A stretch of 53,959 nucleotides of DNA. Origin: Candidatus Mycoplasma haematobovis (GTDB lineage Bacteria; Bacillota_I; Bacilli_A; Mycoplasmatales; Mycoplasmoidaceae). Under the pieces are notes generated by a model. That model did not search any database. It saw only the letters and a program-made list of their open reading frames with translations, and was not told where the DNA came from. The stretch lies in contig NZ_LWUJ01000013.1 in the NCBI RefSeq assembly GCF_001645765.1, positions 1 to 53,959 on the forward strand, in the 5' to 3' direction. The translations under genes and the position numbers were made by a program. Below, in pieces: positions 1 through 25,249 of the stretch (positions are counted from its first letter, which is position 1; every line of letters begins with the position of its first letter).

Positions 1-782
1 TTCCTGCATTAGATATTGATAGATTAAAGAAAATCAAAATATCTCTACCTGATTTAGCTACTCAAGCAAAAATAGCTAACAAACTAAATCAATTCTGAAA
101 ACTATCTGGGGAGCTCTGTGGGGAGCTAAATTTAAGAAAAAAACAATATGAGTACTATAGGGATGAGTTACTGTCATTCAAACAAGATAACAAGATTGAA
201 TGGTTAACTTTAGGAGAAATAGCAACTGATATTTATAGAGGCAGTTTCTTTCCTAAAAATTCAATTGAGGAATCAGGAGAACCTTGCATAAGATATGCAC
301 AACTATATGAAGAAGATAAATTACAATTGGATGGTTGCACTTTATTTACAGATAAATCAAAGATTCAAAGCCCCAAATATTGCGAGTATGGAGATGTTTT
401 GATAACTGCCACAAGCAATATTGGAAAAAATATAGCTAAAGCTTGTGCTTATTTAGGAAGGGGAAAAGCGTTAATTGACAACATATGCGTGGTAATTAAA
501 CACAATCAAAATCCTAAATATTTAGCTTATGCGTTATCAACTACAAATATTCAAAAACAAAAAATAAAGTTAAGCATTTCTTCTGGACTATTTAATATTA
601 CTTTTGATTCAATTAAAAAAATCAAAATTCCTTTACTTTCTTTAGAAAAACAAAAAGAAATTGTTGATTTATTAGATAAATTTTGAGAATTGTCTAACAA
701 TATTAAAGAAGGATTGCCTACAGAGATATTAATGAGGAAGCAACAGTATGAGTACTATAGGGATGAATTATTAAAATTATAA
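1..782 (+). CDS. hsdS: Type I restriction-modification specificity subunit HsdS (5' end outside window)
   Basis: C-terminal ~260 residues of a type I R-M specificity subunit, which chooses the DNA target and bridges two HsdM and two HsdR subunits. Visible are the end of the central conserved helix (PDLATQAKIANKLNQFW), the motif RKKQYEYYRDELL, a second target-recognition domain (about nt 200-640) and the distal conserved helix LEKQKEIVDLLDKFWELS, closing with another QYEYYRDELL and TAA. TGA codons within it must be Trp. Its last 131 bp are identical to the end of the hsdS at 1563-2738. No hsdM or hsdR lies in the window. The family call is firm; the target sequence cannot be predicted. Confidence 0.9.
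645..775. repeat. 131-bp direct repeat, copy A (3' end of first hsdS)
   Basis: Identical base for base to 2601-2731 in the second hsdS and in the same orientation. It encodes the distal conserved helix and the EYYRDELL end of HsdS. It lies downstream of the second recognition domain, so homologous exchange here and at the similar central block (143-212 versus 2099-2168) could swap recognition domains. Confidence 0.9.
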
Positions 783-3082: not shown

Positions 3083-3325
3083 ATGAAATTAATTAACAAA
3101 GTGAAAACTGTTTTAATAGGTAGTTTAGTGGCGGGCAGTGGCGGTGCTTTATATGGTTATATTACAAAAGATAACGGATTATCAAAACCAGTAGTAAATC
3201 CTAGACCTAAACCAACCAATCAAGCATACAAAGATTGTATACAAGGAAAGGGAAATATTAAAGCAAAATCTGAAAGTGTTTGTGGATGGCTATATAGAGG
3301 CTTAAAAGGAGTAAAAAACAGGTAA
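3083..3325 (+). CDS. Small anchored hypothetical protein
   Basis: 80 aa, ATG to TAA. N-terminal Lys-rich head, then a Gly-rich hydrophobic segment (about residues 10-27, IGSLVAGSGGALYGY) typical of the anchors in this block, a Pro-rich linker, and a tail with two Cys (AYKDC, ESVCGW). Its head resembles that of the protein at 807-1226. No TGA codons. Function unknown; probably membrane-anchored with the tail outside. Confidence 0.6.
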   Translation: MKLINKVKTVLIGSLVAGSGGALYGYITKDNGLSKPVVNPRPKPTNQAYKDCIQGKGNIKAKSESVCGWLYRGLKGVKNR

Positions 3326-3686: not shown

Positions 3687-4268
3687 TTAAATTAAACACC
3701 TAGTTTGAACTAATTCTTTAATTGAAACATCGTCTTTTTTGAATGGTCTTGTTTTGCATCAATTAATTCAAGCTTTGTAATTATCTACTAATTCATTTTT
3801 TCATTCCAGTCTCTGATCTTTAAATAAGTCTTTGTATATTAATTCCTTTTCAAAGAAAGAAACTCCAGAAATATACATAGCATCTTCATTCGCCACTTCT
3901 CTGTCTTGTTCCTTTAATTGTCCATCTTTCAAATAATCTACCACACTCATTACACAGTACTTTTTGTAATTATCTACACTAACTAAGAATTTCCTATTAC
4001 TTGTTTCTTTATCGCATCAAAAACTTAAAGCTACTCATTTCTTATTCTCTCCAACTAAGAATTCATCTAACTTAATATCCTTATCAATCTGATTCTTGTG
4101 TCTCACTAATATTCTCTTGTAAATCTCTTCTTTATCCTTAGCGCTTGATACTAATTTGAAGCCTTCACTCTCTAATGAATTAGAGATAATTGGTGAGCCT
4201 CTATAAATTCCATAAAGTACTGCTAATGCTACTATTCCTAGAGAAAATATAGTCTTCTTATGCTTCAT
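3687..4268 (-). CDS. Haemoplasma paralog with WC motifs
   Basis: 193 aa, ATG 4268 to TAA 3687-3689, containing four TGA-Trp. Residues ~5-22 (IFSLGIVALAVLYGIYRG) form an N-terminal anchor, with basic residues before it and a hydrophilic tail after. The tail has two similar cysteine modules: SFWCDKETSN through YKKYCV, and AWINWCKTRP through VQTRCLI. Last gene of a minus-strand set (4258-6346); its start overlaps the end of the preceding gene by 11 bp. No function recognised. Confidence 0.65.
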
Positions 4269-4905
4269 TTCTTCTTGGCGAATCTAAAGTTACACACCAA
4301 GACCTAGCATATTTCTTATCTAAATAGTTTTCTTTAGTAGAGTGTTGATTTAATCTATAGCCACATCAATCTTGAAGTAATGCTATAGCCCTATCTGCAT
4401 TATTCTCTCTTTCATTAAATTCATTAATTACTCCTGCTCTTGCAATATTTCCCCTTAATTCCTTAAAGACTTTATTCCATTCTTTTTCTCTAAGTTCTTC
4501 ATCTAATTCTTCTACTAAATGAACTCCATCCTCTTCAAGAAACTCAATTGCCCATGTAGCTGTACAATATCTCCTAGTTCTTCATAAAGTTAAACTATCT
4601 CAATCTGTACTATTAAATGCTTCTCTACATCACCTATTTAAATAATAAGCTCCTTCTGCATCTGAAGCTTTATTAGTTAAATAAGGAATAAAATTTTCTC
4701 TAAATAAGTCTGCTCTATTAGTAACAAAAATTCTCTTTCACTTATTAAATGGTTCTTTCTTAATTTCTAGAAGAGTTTTAAATCCTTGTGATCTTACTAC
4801 TAAATAAAGAAGTGGTTTTCTATAAAGACTAGAGAAAATTTCAAAGACAATTAACCCAGTTGCACCAGCAAAAGATAAAGTAGTAAGAAATTTCTTAATA
4901 TCCAA
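4258..4905 (-). CDS. Haemoplasma paralog with WC motifs
   Basis: 215 aa from TTG 4905, preceded at 5 nt by AGGAG, a fair ribosome-binding site. Residues ~5-25 are a hydrophobic anchor (FLTTLSFAGATGLIVFEIF). The hydrophilic body has paired Trp-Cys motifs: LNRWCREAF, RRYCTATW, LLQDWCGYR, ARSWCVTLD. Same architecture as its neighbours at 3687 and 4993 but little sequence identity outside the WC sites. Function unknown; likely extracellular, anchored at the N-terminus. Confidence 0.65.
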
Positions 4906-4992
4906 GAACTCCTAAAAAGGATAATTCTTGTTGAGAATAATAATTTAAATTTATTGAGAATTTCGAAAAATTTTTAAATTGCTTGGAAGAAT

Positions 4993-5661
4993 CTACTCTT
5001 CTGTGCATCATTGCTCAGCTTTCTTGATTTTTTGTTCTAAATCATCTTCAAAACTTTTTGCATCTAAAGCATTTAAACAAGCTCCTTTAAATGTCTCTAA
5101 ATCTTTATCAAAATTCTCTTCAGTAATAGTTAATAAATTGGTATTATTTCAAGCAGTTGCCATTTTCAAGTTGTCCACTTTATTTTGCATATATTGTCTT
5201 GCTAGATTTCTAGTTTTTTCATTATCTCAAACCTCTATCTCGTGTTCCAAAGTATAAATATACTTCCTGCCTCGGCCCTTCAAAATATCACCAACTTTTC
5301 TTGGATTAACACATCATCTTTTTGCTTCCACTTCTTCTTCAGAACTTAAAGAATCTTTTTTCTCAAAAGAATTACACAACTTTCTTAATTCTTCTCCCTC
5401 TTTACCATCCTCAAGATTCCTCGCTTTCTTAAAAGTCTCTAAAAGTCGTGGATGTTCTTCAAAGGGCGTACTTAAATCTACAGGAATATAACCCTGTTTA
5501 GTTAAAGCTATTTTCCAAGATGCATTACTCCTTTTAATTTCTGACGAAGGTTTAAGACCGCTTTCAGTAGTTTCAACGGTCGCAAAAGGAATTAGTAAAT
5601 AAGCAACTACAGAAGTTCCGGACGACAAGACTAAACCAAGTAATTTATATGCTAGTTTCAA
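4993..5661 (-). CDS. Haemoplasma paralog, two-module WC protein
   Basis: 222 aa from TTG 5659-5661 to TAG 4993-4995. N-terminal anchor (~3-25, YKLLGLVLSSGTSVVAYLL), then two related modules. The first ends LCNSFEKK...AKRWCVNPR (about residue 118), the second ACLNALDAKSF...KKAEQWC near the C-terminus, both of the form C-x(~20)-W-C. The protein at 5666-6346 is a clear sister, and its stop lies 4 bp upstream of this start. Function unknown. Confidence 0.7.
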
Positions 5662-5665
5662 TTTA

Positions 5666-6346
5666 TTAATCTACACACCACTTTTCAGCTTTTTCCATTC
5701 TTCTTTCTAAATCTTTATCAAAACTCTTAACGGCTAACAAATCTAAACATGCATTTTGAAAATTCTCTTTATCTTTTGGTGAAAAGGATGAACCTATATT
5801 AAGTTTACTATTATTCTCTCAACTAACTTCCAACTTTAATTTTTCATCCTGATTCTTTGAATAATCTTCTATTTTTTTATTTACCTTAGCACTATCTCAT
5901 ACAAAGCCTCTTTCTTCTGCTTGATAAAGTAATTTCTTTCCTTTCTGTTGCAATAATGAATCTAGTGTTCTTGGTTGTACACATCATCTTTTTGTCTCTT
6001 TTTGTTCCTCTGGGCTTAATTGTTCTTGTTCTCTAAACTTATCACACAATTCACTTAATTTATTATCTGCTTCTCCGAATGGTATAGTCTTCTCTTCACT
6101 ATATGCTTCAGCCAAACCTGGAAACGTTTGCCAACTATCATTCTTAGATACAAGTGTATATCCTTCTTTAACTAATTCTTGTTGTCAAGTAGGAGTGGTA
6201 CGATCTTTTGATAATTCCGATTTATCTTCAACTTTAATATCGCTACTATTAATATCATTATTATTAAACTTTGAAACTAATAAATAAGTTGCTGTTGATG
6301 ACCCTGCTAAGAAAAGTAAACTTAATACTTTTGTAACTAACCTCAA
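5666..6346 (-). CDS. Haemoplasma paralog, two-module WC protein
   Basis: 226 aa from TTG 6346 to TAA 5666-5668. Anchor at ~4-24 (TKVLSLLFLAGSSTATYLL), a short linker, then the same two C-x(~20)-W-C modules as its sister at 4993-5661: LCDKFREQ...KRWCVQPR and ACLDLLAVKSF...KKAEKWCVD (in order; middle residues omitted). Between the modules both sisters share KGRK or KGKK and VWD. Tandem duplication is the simplest origin. First gene of this minus-strand set, divergent from the gene at 6410. Confidence 0.7.
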
Positions 6347-6409
6347 ATTTTAATTATTTAACTTATACAACAACTAAAGATATTTAAAATTCATTAGTTA
6401 AGCCAATAG
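6347..6409. promoter_or_regulatory. Divergent intergenic gap, probable promoter region
   Basis: 63 bp of AT-rich DNA between two genes that face away from each other (minus gene starting at 6346, plus gene at 6410). TATTTAAAAT at 6381-6390 could serve as a -10 box for the plus gene. No clear -35 and no operator symmetry seen. Confidence 0.3.
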
Positions 6410-6904
6410 ATGTTTGATGATCTACTAAAGAAATCGGAAGAACTCATTAAATGATGAAAACTAGAACTTGGTGTTACCTTAATATCTTTTTCATTCTTAA
6501 CGGTTATTGTAGGAGTCTCTACAGAATGATCAATTCCTTCTCTTGAAGAACCTATCAATACTTCAAAAATGTTTGAAGAAATACCGTTATTAGTTGTTGT
6601 AGTTGTAACTCTCATAGTTCTTATTGTCTTAATAGCAGTAAGTGTATTTAAGAGTTTCAAAGTCTTAAATTCCTTTAATCAAATACTTAGAGTAATAAAT
6701 GAAGAGAGAATAAAGAATGTATTAAAGAAATCAAAAATATTACTAAGTAGTATTATCTGTTTAACAATATTCCCATTACTAATGCTTCTTCCTCAATTAT
6801 CAGGAGTATTAGCTTTCGGTATCATCGTCTGTAAATTTTTGTTCTACAAAAACAATAAAGAGATCTACAATCTAATAAACAAAACAACAAACCAAGCCCA
6901 ATAA
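6410..6904 (+). CDS. Multi-pass membrane protein of unknown function
   Basis: 164 aa from ATG 6410 to TAA. Three TGA codons in the first 50 residues are Trp (IKWWKLEL, STEWSIP). Predicted membrane segments: ~22-38, ~59-80 (a very Val/Leu/Ile-rich stretch), ~112-128 and ~132-146. No family motif recognised. It stands at the head of the plus-strand paralog array but is not a member: it lacks the WC, LC and GWLF motifs. The larger hydrophobic content suggests an integral membrane protein. Confidence 0.65.
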
Positions 6905-6927
6905 ACATATAAGCAAAAACAAAGTAA

Positions 6928-7326
6928 ATGACATTCTTACTTAAAGGTGTTACAGTAGTAGCAACAACTGTTGGAATAGGTGGTGTTGGTTTGGTTGGCT
7001 CCAATTATGCTTTTCCGAAATCCGAAATCGTAGCTATTGAACCAACTGACAATAAAGAATGAGAAAATAAACTGCTTGAATTAGCAGACGAATTGAAAAA
7101 AACTAGTAATAATGGTTTAGCAGCAAAGATAGATAGCGCTCATCACAGTACTACATTGTCTTTTGTGGAAACTCCAGCAAATTCAAAAGAATTCAAAAAT
7201 AAAACAAGTGCTAGAGATGCTCTTAAAGCTTGATGTATAAGGACTGATGCACAAGAAGCAGAACTAAAAGATAAGTTATGCAAAAAAGAAGTAAAAAAAG
7301 GATGATTATTTGGAAATGATGTCTAA
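6928..7326 (+). CDS. WC/GWLF-family paralog 1
   Basis: 132 aa, ATG to TAA. The family pattern is complete here: short head MTFLLKG, Gly-rich anchor ending VGLVGSNYAF (~6-27), a charged ~70-residue middle with WENKLLEL, then the C-terminal signature ALKAWC, DKLC and KKGWLFGN. All the Trp are TGA-coded. The next gene starts within its last codons. Predicted to sit in the membrane by the anchor with the rest outside; no biochemical role recognised. Confidence 0.7.
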
Positions 7327-7636
7327 GTTAATTAAATTTCTTTATTTTGGAGCTGGTTGTGTTGGAACAGTAGTAGCAGGATCAATATCTTTATTAGCTA
7401 ACCAAAGAACAGAAGCTATTGACTTGCTACTTAAAGAATTAGTAAATGTTAAGAACCAAAGTGGTAGACAAGCGGGAATAGTGAACCAAATTAAACAAGA
7501 TGGAATGGATAATGAATTCAAAATTGAAAACAATCAATTTATAGATAGAGAAAAAGCTAAACAAACTTTAAATGATTGATGTGTTACTGGTGTTAATAAC
7601 AAAGATAAATACCTATTCAATAAGTTCTGTCACTAA
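7319..7636 (+). CDS. WC-family paralog 2, short form
   Basis: 105 aa from ATG 7319 (head MSKLIKF, like its relatives); an earlier in-frame TTG at 7310 is less likely. Overlaps paralog 1 by 8 bp. Anchor ~8-27 (YFGAGCVGTVVAGSISLL). Carries QTLNDWC and a last Cys (NKFCH) but lacks the GWLF ending, so it is a shortened or diverged member. Confidence 0.65.
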
Positions 7637-7639
7637 TTA

Positions 7640-8008
7640 ATGTCTTTACTTCTTAAAGTAGGATTGCCTTGTGTTATTGGAACTGCTGGTGCAGGTGTAG
7701 TTGGGTCTAATTGAATATTTACAACAAAAAGAATAGTTACTCTTACAAAACCTGAAGATGAAAGATGAAACGAAAAATTAGAATTATTACTTACTAAATT
7801 AAATCAAAATAGTGGATTAGATGCAAAAATAGATAAACAAACTAGTAGCCAAACGCTAGTAAGAACCACAAACCCCGCTAAATTTACTCACATCGATAAA
7901 GCCAAAAAAGCCTTGCAAGACTGGTGCAAAAGTAGTGACAAAAGTGACACAGCTACCCATGAAAAAGATTTATGTCAAGTAGAGGAAACTAAAGGCTGAA
8001 TGTTTTAG
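7640..8008 (+). CDS. WC/GWLF-family paralog 3
   Basis: 122 aa, ATG 7640 to TAG. Head MSLLLKVGLPC, anchor ending GAGVVGSNWIF, then RWNEKLELLL in the middle and ALQDWC, EKDLC and KGWMF at the end. The anchor-coding DNA (GCAGGTGTAGTTGG followed by TCTAATTGAATATTT) recurs at 8925 and 9771, which suggests recent duplication or conversion. Starts 3 bp after paralog 2. Confidence 0.7.
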
Positions 8009-8014
8009 GGCGGT

Positions 8015-8386
8015 GTGAGCTTCCCAATAAAAACCACAGTTGGATGCTTAGGTGGTTTAACAGTATGTGGTTGTTTATTAGGAAGTAATTACGTATTTAC
8101 AAAAGAAAAATTAGTAGATATTAAAGACAAAAATAGTAAAGCTTGAGACACCAAAATTACATTATTACTAAACAAAATTATTAGTACTGTTAACAATAGA
8201 GAAATAATAGACAAAATTTCCCAAAACAATCCTGGAATTTTGATAACTACTTCTGGAAAATTCTCTAATAGTGCTAAAGCTAAAGAAGCTTTACAAAACT
8301 GATGTAAAAAAAATAACAAATATGATCAAAAATTAGTTGAAGAATTATGTAAAGTTAAAGATCAAGTAGGTTGAATGTCAAAATAA
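8015..8386 (+). CDS. WC-family paralog 4
   Basis: 123 aa from GTG 8015 (another GTG two bases earlier is out of frame) to TAA. Head VSFPIKTTVGC, anchor through GCLLGSNYVF, AWDTKITLLL in the middle, and ALQNWC, EELC and VGWMSK at the end; the final LF is replaced by SK. Stop overlaps the next ATG by 1 bp. Confidence 0.68.
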
Positions 8387-8745
8387 TGTCAGTATCTTTA
8401 ATAAAGTGAGTTGCTTTAGGAATAGGAGGGGTCAGTGCCGCAACAGCAAGCACCGTAGCAATAATAAATCATAAAGCTAATATTGCTGAAGACGCACTAT
8501 GAACAGCAAGAACTGATGAACTGGCTAAGAAAATAAAAGCCGAAAGCAATAATTGAAAAAAGCTAGTTGCGGTTATTACTGGTAAAGAAGAGGAAGAAAG
8601 CATTTTTAAAATCGAAAACGACAAATTTAAAGATCCAAAAAAAGCAAAGGAAGAATTAAAAGAATGATGCCAAAATAGTGAAATAAAGGAAAGAACATAT
8701 AACAATATCAATCTTGATACTACTGTTTGTAAATTTAAAAAATAA
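8386..8745 (+). CDS. WC-family paralog 5, divergent
   Basis: 119 aa, ATG 8386 to TAA. Head MSVSLIKWVALG, Gly/Ala-rich anchor without the GSN motif, a charged middle, and ELKEWC then a lone Cys (TTVCKF) at the end; no GWLF. It resembles paralog 10 (11239-11595) in the anchor (GIGGVSAATAS against GISGIGAISGG) and in its ending, so the array seems to hold two subfamilies. Confidence 0.62.
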
Positions 8746-8924
8746 CAATTCCTTGCATAAACTACATACTACTTAGTAGTAATTAATGTATTTAAAAAAT
8801 ATCTTTAGGGTTAATTATTACTTTCGTTAAAGGTCTAGTTATTTTGAGCAGAAATTTAAAAATAATGAAATATTACTAAAAATCAACTAATTATTTAAAA
8901 GTAAGTAAAAGTTAGTTTTTTCAC
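8746..8924. other. Intergenic gap in paralog array
   Basis: 179 bp, very AT-rich. An 8-bp palindrome-like ACTACTTAGTAGT is seen near 8770-8782. No complete family member is readable; a promoter for paralog 6 may lie here, but I cannot place its boxes. Confidence 0.3.
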
Positions 8925-9314
8925 ATGTTAAGTTTAGTTAAATTTGGAATGCCTTGTTTTTTGGGAGTTGGGAGTGCAGGTGTAGTTGGATCTAATTGAA
9001 TATTTAAAAAAGAAGAGGTGTTACTAATAGATAGCGAAGACAAAGAGGATTGAGACCAAAAGGTTAAAGACTTGTTTAAAAAAATTAAAAATGGAGATAC
9101 TAATTTAAAATCACAAATTGCTGGAACTAGTGAACATGCGAAAAGCCTAGAAATAGAAGATAGTAATAATAATAACTTTAAAGAACCAGCAAAAGCAAGG
9201 GATTCTTTAATAGCTTGATGCCAAAGTAAAAGGGATTCAAACGAGGATATAGTTACAGAACTATGCAAAGAGAAACAATGAACTGGCTGATTGTTTGGTA
9301 ATCGAATGGGATAG
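8925..9314 (+). CDS. WC/GWLF-family paralog 6
   Basis: 129 aa, ATG to TAG. Head MLSLVKFGMPC, anchor ending AGVVGSNWIFKK, DWDQKVKDL in the middle, LIAWC, TELC and TGWLFGNR at the end. Its 5' ~70 bp is very close to that of paralogs 7 (9771) and 11 (11768), whereas the middle is unrelated. That mosaic suits a conserved anchor with a variable exposed part. Confidence 0.7.
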
Positions 9315-9389
9315 TTGCATTATTTTTAGATACTGTTAACATTATTAATTTTTAAGAATATCGTAATAGATAATTAAGGGGACGTTTTT

Positions 9390-9767
9390 ATGATCAAACT
9401 GTTGATTTTACCTATTTTAGGATTAACAACAGTAAGTGGTAGATTAATTGGTAGTAATTATTTATTTAAAAAAATCATAAATGTGGATTTGGAATAAAAT
9501 GGTGGTAATTAACAATGAGATTTAAAACTTAAATTATTAATACCAAAATTAACTTCAAATACTCAGTTAAGTGTAAAAATAAATTCAGGAGGTGAAAGTG
9601 TTAATAATTTAGCTATTAACAGCTCCGCTCCTGAGGATTTTGCCCAAAAAGATAATGCAAGAAATGATTTAAAGAAATGGTGTTTAAAAAGAGAAAAAGA
9701 GGAGTATGAAAAATTGCATGAGAATGAATTGTGTAAAATATCAAAAGAGATAGGTTGGTTATTTTAA
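9390..9767 (+). pseudogene. WC/GWLF-family copy with two internal stops
   Basis: Reads as a full-length member in one frame from ATG 9390 (MIKLLILPILG, RLIGSNYLFKK) to TAA 9765-9767 (DLKKWC, NELC, IGWLF). It is interrupted by TAA after NVDLE (codon 36) and again five codons later. The frame is kept across both stops, so decay is recent or the copy serves as a conversion donor. Confidence 0.75.
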
Positions 9768-9770
9768 ATT

Positions 9771-10139
9771 ATGACAGGTTTTTGAAAAATGACTATTCCT
9801 TGCTTTTTGGTGGCAGGTGGCACAGGTGTAGTTGGATCTAATTGAATATTTAAAAAGAAATATCTAATAAAAGTAAAAGATTCAGAAGAAGGAGTTTGGG
9901 ACCAAAAGCTAGAAGAGCTTAAAAAAATGTTAACACCTTCAAATACTAGAGATGAAATTGCACAAAGCATTGGCGGAGGAGAAAAAACTAATCTTGCTTT
10001 AAATTCCAATAATAGCGGATTCACTGATGTAGCTAATGCTAAGGTTACTTTAAAAAAATGATGTAATGGAAAAAATCACGAAAAAGAATACTTTGACAAA
10101 CTGTGTAAAAAAGTTGAATATAAAAATTTAATCTTTTAA
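9771..10139 (+). CDS. WC-family paralog 7
   Basis: 122 aa, ATG 9771 to TAA. Head MTGFWKMTIPC, anchor GGTGVVGSNWIFKK, VWDQKLEEL in the middle, TLKKWC and DKLC near the end, final NLIF in place of GWLF. It begins 3 bp after the pseudogene stop. Two TGA-Trp in the first 25 codons. Confidence 0.7.
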
Positions 10140-10140
10140 G

Positions 10141-10533
10141 CTCGGGTTATTATTCCCAATTAAGGTTTTGGTTGCGGGTATTTGTTATGCAGCTGCTGGC
10201 GGAAGTTTAGTGGGGAGTAATTATATATTTAAAATAGAGCGACTTGTAGATATTCCTCAAGACGGAGCAGAAAATAAATGAGAAGAAAAATTACCTATAT
10301 TACTTAAAAAAATTATTGCAAATAGCGGTTTAAGTGTCAAGATTGATCCGCAAAAGCATTCTAGCAATTTAGCTAAAACAGGCGCTTCTGGAAGTGAAGA
10401 ATTTAGCAATAAAAATGATGCAAAAGCTTCTTTAAAAGCTTGGTGCAAAAAAGAAAATAAACAAACAGGAGAAAAAGAGCATGAAGAAGAATTATGTAAA
10501 GAATCTGTTAAAAAAGAGTGATTGTTTGGTTAA
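10141..10533 (+). CDS. WC/GWLF-family paralog 8, start codon missing or unusual
   Basis: Family alignment places the N-terminus at about 10141 (LGLLFPIKVLVAG, then GGSLVGSNYIF), but no ATG, GTG or TTG is available there. The frame is closed by TAA at 10129, and the first standard start is TTG 10168, which would cut the head to MVAGICYAAAGG. The remainder is intact: KWEEKLPILL, SLKAWC, EELC, KKEWLFG, TAA 10531-10533. Either a non-standard start is used or expression is lost. Confidence 0.55.
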
Positions 10534-10542
10534 TTAAAAATT

Positions 10543-10905
10543 GTGTCATTATTTTTAAAAATGGTACTACCAAGTACATTGTTTGTTTCTGGTGGGAGTT
10601 TGGTGGGTAGTAATTACTTATTTAAGAGAATGAGGTGGATTGATATTCCGAGCAAAGTTGACGAGAGATGAAATGAAAAATTAAATGAACTTTTGAAAAA
10701 GATAGAGAAAGATTTTCATTTGGCAAGAAAGATAGACAAGACATTGAATGCAAGAAGATTAGCAAAAAATGGAAATGATTTTACTAACCGTGACGAAGCT
10801 AAAGAAGCATTGCAAGAATGATGTGCAAAAAAAGATAAAACAGAAGCAAAAGAACACTCAAGATCTTTGTGTCACGTACAAGAACAAAAAGGCTGGTTGT
10901 TTTAG
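10543..10905 (+). CDS. WC/GWLF-family paralog 9
   Basis: 120 aa from GTG 10543 to TAG. Head VSLFLKMVLPS, anchor ending GGSLVGSNYLF, RWNEKLNELL in the middle, ALQEWC, RSLC and KGWLF at the end. More basic middle part than its neighbours. Starts 9 bp after the stop of paralog 8. Confidence 0.68.
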
Positions 10906-11236
10906 TAGAACTTAGCAAACGAAGTTATTATTAATTTAAAGAAATAAAAATTAGGAATTATGGTTAGTCTATCATTTAATAGTGCAAATGTAAAATATTT
11001 TGCTTAACAATTCCAAATTAACGTTTCTTTCAAAAACCTATTATTAAAAGTCGATAATTCATTGTTTATTAAAGTTAAGCTATTTGTCGAATAATAAAGT
11101 AATAGACACAAATAAAATTGATATTAGAGGAACCAAAAACTAAAAAGCACCACAAACTTGATGAAACAAAGATTTAGAGATAAAAAAATTAATTAATGAA
11201 TTTTGTAAAAACGAAAAAAAAGATTGATTATTTTAA
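10906..11236 (+). pseudogene. Heavily decayed WC-family copy
   Basis: The last ~30 codons are readable (TWWNKDLEIKK, INEFC, KKDWLF, TAA 11234-11236) and match the C-terminal signature, without the WC. Upstream there are stops in all frames and no anchor. Nothing else is seen in this 331-bp stretch. Confidence 0.5.
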
Positions 11237-11238
11237 TA

Positions 11239-11595
11239 ATGTCAACTGTAAATTACAAATTACTGATTTTAGGAGGAATTTCAGGAATTGGTGCCATATC
11301 TGGGGGAGTTGTTGCATTAAATAGACACCTTTCAAATGCCAAAGAAGAAGCTTGAAACACAAACACAAAAAAGCTAGAAGAGAAGGTGGTTTTTGTGCAT
11401 GGAAAAGTAGATGCCTCACTCAATGATTTAAAAGATTCTATTCGAGAGATAGATGTTGATTTAGCTTTAGAATTAAATAGAAATAATGATGGATTTAAGT
11501 ATTTTGATAAAGCAAAACAAGCTTTAAAAAATTGATGTTCTGACGAGTCCAAAAAAAGCAAAGAAGCGTTGTCTAAAGAAATGTATTGTGTGTAA
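11239..11595 (+). CDS. WC-family paralog 10, divergent subfamily
   Basis: 118 aa, ATG to TAA. Anchor ~9-28 (LILGGISGIGAISGGVVAL), AWNTNTKKLEEK in the middle with a coiled-coil-like heptad look, ALKNWC then a terminal YCV. Like paralog 5 it lacks GSN and GWLF. It starts 2 bp after the decayed copy. Confidence 0.62.
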
Positions 11596-11757
11596 AGGAG
11601 ACTTAATAAAATAAAGCCTTAAAATCAAAAATAAGCACTAACGCTTATGATTTATAAAAGAGCTTTGTAGACTTGATTTAATAAAGATCCTTAAGGTAAG
11701 GAAAAGTTAATTCAGGAGTTGTGCCAAAGAACTAAAAATCAAGAATATTCTTTTTAA
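11596..11757 (+). pseudogene. Decayed WC-family copy
   Basis: From about 11620 one frame reads fragments of the family end: TWFNKDP, stop, KEKLIQELC, EYSF, TAA 11755-11757. Internal TAG and TAA and no start codon. Counted as a relic of another tandem member. Confidence 0.45.
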
Positions 11758-11767
11758 AAGTCATTTT

Positions 11768-12145
11768 ATGTCTTATTTATCAAAAATAGTTATTCCTTGT
11801 ATTTTGGGAGTTGGGAGTGCAAGTTTGATTGGGTCTAATTGAGCATTTAAGAGGGAGAAATTAATAAAAATTGAAAATGAAGAGATTAATTCTGGCATAT
11901 GAGATGAAAAAATAAATATTCTTAAAAATAAATTTGAAAATTCACCTAAAAGGAGTCAACTAGAAATTGATTTAAGTGGTAGGAATCCTGCGTCTTTTAA
12001 TCTTAATGCGGAAAGAACAGATTTTGCAGATAGAGAAAGAGCAAAAGAAAAATTAAAGGCTTGATGTAAAAAACCTGTTGATCACGAGGAATTATATGAT
12101 GAACTTTGTAAAAAATCTCAAAAAAAGGGATGATTGTTTGGATAA
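11768..12145 (+). CDS. WC/GWLF-family paralog 11
   Basis: 125 aa, ATG 11768 to TAA. Head MSYLSKIVIPC, anchor GSASLIGSNWAFKR, IWDEKINILK in the middle, KLKAWC, DELC and KKGWLFG at the end. The last complete member of the array. Confidence 0.7.
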
Positions 12146-24029: not shown

Positions 24030-24323
<294 letters not shown>

Positions 24324-24328
24324 AATCA

Positions 24329-24643
<315 letters not shown>

Positions 24644-24646
24644 CTA

Positions 24647-24937
<291 letters not shown>

Positions 24938-24955
24938 AGCTATTGAACGGTAAAT

Positions 24956-25249
<294 letters not shown>

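Follow-up and report, generated by a model that had tools for sequence, protein, structure and literature searches.

A cysteine-paired module common to predicted surface proteins of Candidatus Mycoplasma haematobovis and related haemoplasmas

Introduction

Up to ~70% of the genes in haemoplasmas, which are unculturable blood pathogens, are labelled as uncharacterised paralogues and are assumed to serve antigenic variation. An island of such genes in Candidatus Mycoplasma haematobovis raises the question of whether its products, which differ in size and sequence, follow a common design. The island lies in the window analysed here, a stretch of 53,959 bp (contig NZ_LWUJ01000013.1, positions 1 to 53,959; contig 13 of the assembly), and comprises four minus-strand open reading frames (ORFs; 3687-6346) and a plus-strand array (6928-12145) of 11 intact ORFs, a broken copy and a 3' remnant. 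It is probable that the array and the minus-strand proteins belong to one haemoplasma superfamily of N-terminally anchored extracellular domains with one disulfide each. The superfamily, its internal repeats, the near-absolute pairing of its Cys residues and purifying selection between sister species are read from sequence, and the fold and the anchor are predicted. A single domain with a fixed Cys pair would offer a common and testable design for hundreds of long-known uncharacterised genes, among them the majority of those in the window.

In earlier reports, haemoplasma paralogues are described as uncharacterised, numbering hundreds, with an N-terminal signal or transmembrane segment and a non-cytoplasmic tail; some are expressed and one is immunogenic, and a role in immune evasion was proposed (PMC3146833, PMC3196708, PMC3496576, PMC3958358). 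Mass spectrometry detected such paralogues (PMC3146833). The portions of PMC3146833, PMC3196708 and PMC3496576 available mention neither a module common to the paralogues nor paired Cys, an internal repeat or a fold, and the literature on cysteine or disulfides in haemoplasma paralogues, for which coverage is incomplete, gave no account of the module. What is new here is the shared module, the rule of paired Cys, the internal duplication, the predicted fold and the purifying selection.

The genome carrying the window (935,638 bp, 18 contigs, ~30% GC, genetic code 4) was compared with its nearest relatives, M. haemocanis Illinois (919,992 bp) and M. haemofelis Langford 1 (1,147,259 bp). The sequence read amounted to ~503 kb of the window's genome, 295 kb of M. 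haemocanis and 460 kb of M. haemofelis, and per-genome counts are therefore lower bounds.

A superfamily defined by paired cysteines

A set of 1,823 ORFs from the three genomes was searched with a profile, A5, made from 100 two-module paralogues and iterated once, in which the four Cys are the only invariant columns and mean column identity is 23%. This, the kind of profile search suggested in a first-pass annotation of the locus that was made from the letters alone, recruited 1,203 of the ORFs at E<=1e-6, with 0 reversed-sequence matches. In a search across 95 genomes, strong superfamily matches were confined to the genus of the window.

Among the two-module proteins, the four Cys columns are 99.8% Cys at a mean pairwise identity of 18.8% and all four are present in 1,031 of 1,037 rows; the next-best columns are one upstream Trp per repeat (W at 86% and 85%). 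Exactly four ectodomain Cys occur in 95.8% of these proteins, against ~19% expected from the Cys content of other ORFs. The number follows length, with four at 185-245 aa (971/985), six at 280-340 aa (37/39) and mostly two at 115-150 aa, such that two, four and six ectodomain Cys track one, two and three modules. Because the profile rewards Cys, so that recruits could carry Cys through selection by the search itself, a control was run with C and W masked in both profile and targets. It still recruited 934 ORFs (best reversed sequence E 7.1), and 805 of the 813 of two-module length had exactly four ectodomain Cys. The first Cys is surrounded by L(-4), K(-3) and often A(-5), with W or another residue at -1, and the second by Y/F/L at -7, A/V at -4 and W/Y/F at -1.

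Comparison of repeat 1 with repeat 2 of the two-module family gave an hhalign probability of 98.8% (E 1e-16), and the long proteins are therefore internal duplications. Both the suggestion that they hold the module twice and the wider one of a shared homologous module multiplied by duplication are thus upheld, since proteins with one, two and three modules occur. Three-module proteins of ~280-327 aa with six Cys are present in all three genomes, and some single-module proteins carry Gly/Ser/Pro-rich C-terminal tails that extend 30-57 residues past the module (e.g. C1:20001-40000).

The combination of paired Cys with avoidance of unpaired Cys is that expected of a disulfide-bonded extracellular domain, and it is the strength of this avoidance that chiefly speaks for disulfides made outside the cytoplasm. 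Pairing of the first with the second Cys within each module is suggested because one-, two- and three-module proteins hold two, four and six Cys; covariation of Cys loss is useless as a pairing test because Cys is almost never lost.

The four long minus-strand proteins of the window (193-226 aa) have exactly four Cys each, a sole hydrophobic segment at the N-terminus, a tail length that fits the published paralogue type and detectable sequence homology to M. haemofelis and M. haemocanis paralogues; a related-loci search with a closer alignment set returned five named loci of these two species. In the 193-aa protein (3687-4268, minus strand) the two-module arrangement consists of Cys pairs at ~3954-4028 and ~3696-3770 (both WC-19-C), and in the 215-aa protein (4258-4905, minus strand) of pairs at ~4564-4641 (WC-20-C) and ~4294-4377 (WC-22-WC). 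The two-module 222-aa protein (4993-5661, minus strand) has pairs at ~5311-5388 (C-20-WC) and ~5005-5091 (C-23-WC). The same pattern, C-20-WC ... C-23-WC, is found in the two-module 226-aa protein (5666-6346, minus strand) that was chosen for modelling, with pairs at ~5981-6058 (C101/C122) and ~5675-5761 (C200/C224).

Cys pairs 13-24 residues apart, with Trp directly before one or both Cys, were found in 11/11 intact array ORFs and 4/4 minus-strand ORFs. The first-pass annotation had proposed that nearly all of these proteins carry WC followed 8-25 residues later by a second Cys. This describes the array and the proteins at 3687 and 4258, but the order is reversed in those at 4993-5661 and 5666-6346, where the Trp therefore belongs with the second Cys. 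Of 19 ORFs examined, 13 contained the literal motif and 15 the motif in either order, where residue shuffles gave expectations of 0.4 and 0.56, respectively. WC is not the constant feature; the Cys pair is, and Trp, Tyr or Phe may stand before the second Cys. The WC dipeptide was seen 622 times against 43 expected in the window's genome, 572 against 40 in M. haemocanis and 914 against 62 in M. haemofelis, densities that overstate the whole-genome level because the stretches read were chosen partly around paralogue matches; in the same stretches CW was counted 10, 1 and 8 times, respectively.

Two small proteins that had been grouped with the others were set aside on their Cys pattern. That at 807-1226 is placed in another four-Cys family (C-10/14-C-6-WC-2-C), of which the sequence read from this genome holds nine copies, and that at 3083-3325 contains no WC (C, then CGW). 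The four-Cys 807-1226 protein and the neighbouring 117-aa protein (1196-1549) occur side by side again elsewhere in this genome (10527-11068 of another stretch), the 117-aa protein nearly identical, as if a two-gene unit had been copied.

Selection on the paralogues

Comparison of M. haemofelis with M. haemocanis gave 250 reciprocal best pairs with a median identity of 75%. The ratio of nonsynonymous to synonymous substitution rates (dN/dS) had a whole-protein median of 0.14, with 0 of the 250 pairs above 1, and was 0.126 for the ectodomains, so that diversifying selection was not seen between the species; the values are approximate because dS is near 1, and the non-family set of 11 pairs is too small for a housekeeping baseline. 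Cys (99.9%) and Trp (98.7%) were the most conserved residues between the sister species. No high-identity conversion tracts were detected in the array (the best reached ~75% over 56 nt), and the search for tandem repeats that could act as phase-variation switches returned one weak match only.

These data bear on the classic explanation of such arrays as an antigenic-variation reservoir, in which cassettes are shuffled or switched quickly and diversity arises by diversifying selection. That view was put forward earlier (PMC3196708, PMC3146833) and fits a chronic blood-borne infection with cyclic bacteraemia and huge numbers of paralogues, as well as the one to seven positively selected codons reported in many families (PMC3958358). 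We nevertheless consider it unlikely, as each of the intact copies comes with a start and an anchor of its own, unlike promoterless partial cassettes, no high-identity tracts were seen, the single tandem repeat is weak, and one-to-one orthologues have a dN/dS of 0.13 with no pair above 1. Gene conversion of the VlsE/Msp2 type relies on promoterless cassettes, one expression site and high-identity tracts, which the array of the window does not have. Purifying selection, together with the lack of high-identity conversion tracts in the array, argues for old duplications, each member being kept by selection. An old, maintained repertoire thus appears to be favoured over fast hypervariation, and would be compatible with expression switching. 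In this respect, the purifying selection seen between the sister species calls into question the standard view of the paralogues as an antigenic-variation system.

The one-module array

All members of the array are on the plus strand and, when intact, contain one module. The pair is WC-14-C at 6928-7326 (~7222-7281, with a GWLF tail), 8015-8386 (~8291-8350, GTG start) and 8925-9314 (~9207-9266), WC-15-C at 7640-8008 (~7913-7975, the member that was modelled) and 10543-10905 (~10810-10872, GTG start), WC-13-C at 9771-10139 (~10050-10106) and 11768-12145 (~12053-12109), and WC-16-C at 10168-10533 (~10432-10497, start codon uncertain). A short-tail subtype is found at 7316-7636 (WC-15-C, ~7568-7630), 8386-8745 (WC-19-C, ~8656-8730) and 11239-11595 (WC-16-C, ~11524-11589). 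In the broken copy (9378-9767) two in-frame TAA codons separate the anchor from the module, and the 3' remnant (11144-11236) retains a tail, KDWLF, and one Cys. The only residues invariant across the array are L52, F89, A95, L99, W102, C103 and C118 (numbering of 6928-7326).

A profile of the array found, as its best matches outside the window, small one-module proteins of the window's genome (E 2.7e-9), and also two-module proteins of M. haemofelis, M. haemocanis and the window's genome (E ~5e-7 to 1e-5), the best reversed sequence having E 0.03. The paralogues of M. haemofelis and M. haemocanis are direct homologues with an N-terminal anchor and a long non-cytoplasmic tail, and occur in hundreds of copies in islands near type I restriction genes. 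They differ in that the one-module array as such was found in the window's genome alone among the genomes searched, and the array tails (~80-100 aa) are below the ~200-aa non-cytoplasmic tail of M. haemofelis-type paralogues.

Predicted structure

The AlphaFold2 model of the 5666-6346 protein, obtained with the A5 alignment, had a mean predicted local distance difference test (pLDDT) score of 83.9 and a predicted template modelling (pTM) score of 0.73, with 157 of 226 residues at >=90; residues ~52-226 were mostly above 90 and the anchor was below 50. Repeat 1 has helices at 90-105, holding C101, and 112-121, adjoined by C122, while those of repeat 2 are at 190-204 (C200) and 213-223 (adjoined by C224). 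Each repeat is thus predicted as helix-Cys-turn-helix-Cys, with short strands in addition, mainly in repeat 2. In the array model (7640-8008) a strand is followed by the Trp helix, small strands, two helices that end near C96 and at C112, respectively, and a further strand, and the order of elements is common to both models. The disulfide-linked helical hairpin imagined at first is retained in part: two helices accompany each Cys pair in the model of the long protein and the Cys statistics fit a disulfide, but the domain is mixed alpha/beta.

No convincing structural match was found in the PDB (Foldseek best E 3.1; VIA best Z 2.5) or in BFVD (Foldseek best E 2.6), and a profile search of PDB sequences gave nothing below E 0.14. 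Pfam and NCBIfam gave only scattered sub-threshold matches for the window proteins and 100 homologues. Judged against the PDB and BFVD, a new fold is possible.

Anchor and membrane side

The short N-terminal anchor that had been placed ahead of the module was confirmed as a sequence feature: in 94% of two-module proteins K/R is present among the first eight residues, and residues 9-26 are rich in Gly/Ala/Leu/Val with few charges. On this charge pattern an N-in, C-out topology is predicted. Signal peptidase I (PF10502) was not found in the three genomes by a profile that was positive in 14/14 controls, and the anchor is therefore probably not cleaved by that enzyme. By-eye inspection for the lipobox of mycoplasma lipoproteins, [LVI][ASTVI][GAS]C after the signal helix, found none in most N-termini; Cys11 is preceded by Pro in several array members, and 8015-8386 (VCGC) is ambiguous. 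Disulfide bonding, surface exposure and a role in host interaction are inferred for the module proteins.

Alternative explanations

Several observations weigh against a single superfamily of disulfide-bonded domains. The array and the long family differ in Cys spacing (13-19 in the array) and in the residue before the second Cys, usually Leu in the array, and their direct profile-profile scores (hhalign) are weak. Structure prediction gave the shared order of elements with an array model that is itself weak (pLDDT 68.6). In the long protein the first Cys is ~four residues inside the helix end and the second just past the next helix, an asymmetric placement across the turn. Finally, DsbA (PF01323) and VKOR (PF07884) matched in 0/3 genomes although positive controls passed, and each of the three genomes has one thioredoxin only, with no recognised oxidant; oxidation would therefore fall to the oxidising plasma of the host or to an unrecognised enzyme.

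The differences in spacing and preceding residue, and the weak profile-profile scores, are what would be seen if the array and the long proteins were unrelated families that had both come to use a Trp-Cys pair. Such convergence is improbable, since the array profile finds W-C paralogues in three genomes at E 1e-9 to 1e-5, beyond its reversed control, and a common pattern, A(-5) L(-4) K(-3) W(-1) C, accompanies the same order of elements in both models. The asymmetry of the Cys could be read as disulfides between molecules, joining the anchored proteins into a surface lattice for which dense, co-oriented genes could supply many subunits; there is little likelihood of this, as the Cys pairs have fixed spacing and are strictly proportional to modules, and intramolecular pairing is simplest. 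Least probable is that the pairs bind metal, heme or another cofactor, possibly on tails that are even cytoplasmic, as could be argued from Cys and Trp being the most conserved residues and from the missing thiol oxidase, because single-module proteins, with two Cys and no conserved His, lack the number of ligands that a usual Zn site needs, the avoidance of unpaired Cys is an effect of an oxidising compartment, and the charge pattern puts the tail outside.

The superfamily of anchored, disulfide-bonded domains may then be pictured as follows. An uncleaved, Gly-rich N-terminal helix with a short positively charged N-terminus inside would serve as anchor, and between one and three copies of an ~80-100-residue domain would face the blood side. 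Each domain would have a Trp near its first helix and two terminal helices whose Cys form one disulfide, by spontaneous oxidation in blood, usually with an aromatic residue packing ahead of the second Cys. The arrays would have arisen as genes were duplicated whole and in tandem, and proteins with two or three modules through internal duplication. With the scaffold fixed and the remainder diverged to ~19% identity, a large standing repertoire of distinct host-facing proteins would result, the likely role of which is to bind host components and to present many different surfaces to antibodies. More tentatively, the hypothetical proteome of the haemofelis clade may consist for the most part of a hitherto undescribed extracellular disulfide domain, possibly of new fold, that folds with no known thiol oxidase and that purifying selection maintains in hundreds of different proteins facing the host, as a stable repertoire and not a fast-varying antigen pool.

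Comparison with other surface families

The paralogues of M. suis and Ca. M. haemolamae likewise have a short Gly-rich N-terminal anchor and, in many members, two Cys pairs. They differ in spacing (C-12..28-C and C-9..18-C) and in that Trp-Cys is almost absent, and no clear homology to the superfamily was found (hhalign probability 0.4-12.7%). Gly-rich anchors and two Cys pairs, e.g. C-25-C ... C-14-C or C-18-C-23-C-11-C, without WC, were seen in M. suis Illinois, M. parvum and Ca. M. haemolamae. The Cys-pair theme of these species is possibly an older common theme or a case of convergence.

Large families of anchored, disulfide-held and highly divergent surface proteins are also known from eukaryotic blood parasites, namely the trypanosome VSG and Plasmodium PIR proteins. 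The haemoplasma superfamily differs from these in being bacterial and in having orthologues under purifying selection; no sequence relation is claimed, and there was no structural match to any PDB entry.

The island and its neighbours

Two HsdS genes (type I restriction specificity, Pfam PF01420; 327-782 and 1563-2738, both plus strand), one of them a fragment, flank the paralogue island, which thus lies beside type I restriction-modification genes as do the M. haemofelis-type paralogues. A multi-pass membrane protein (6410-6904, plus strand) with no Pfam match and no Cys-pair module is encoded at the head of the array. A scan for promoters and terminators found sites no more numerous than in shuffles. 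Elsewhere in the window, four diverged ATP synthase c-subunit genes lie in tandem (PF00137, E ~1e-18 each; 24030-25249, minus strand), and their products of 96-99 aa all have a Gln-rich stretch close to the N-terminus. A protein with an FtsX-like permease domain (PF02687) is encoded at 47752-53898 on the minus strand; its length of 2,048 aa is very great for a genome of this kind.

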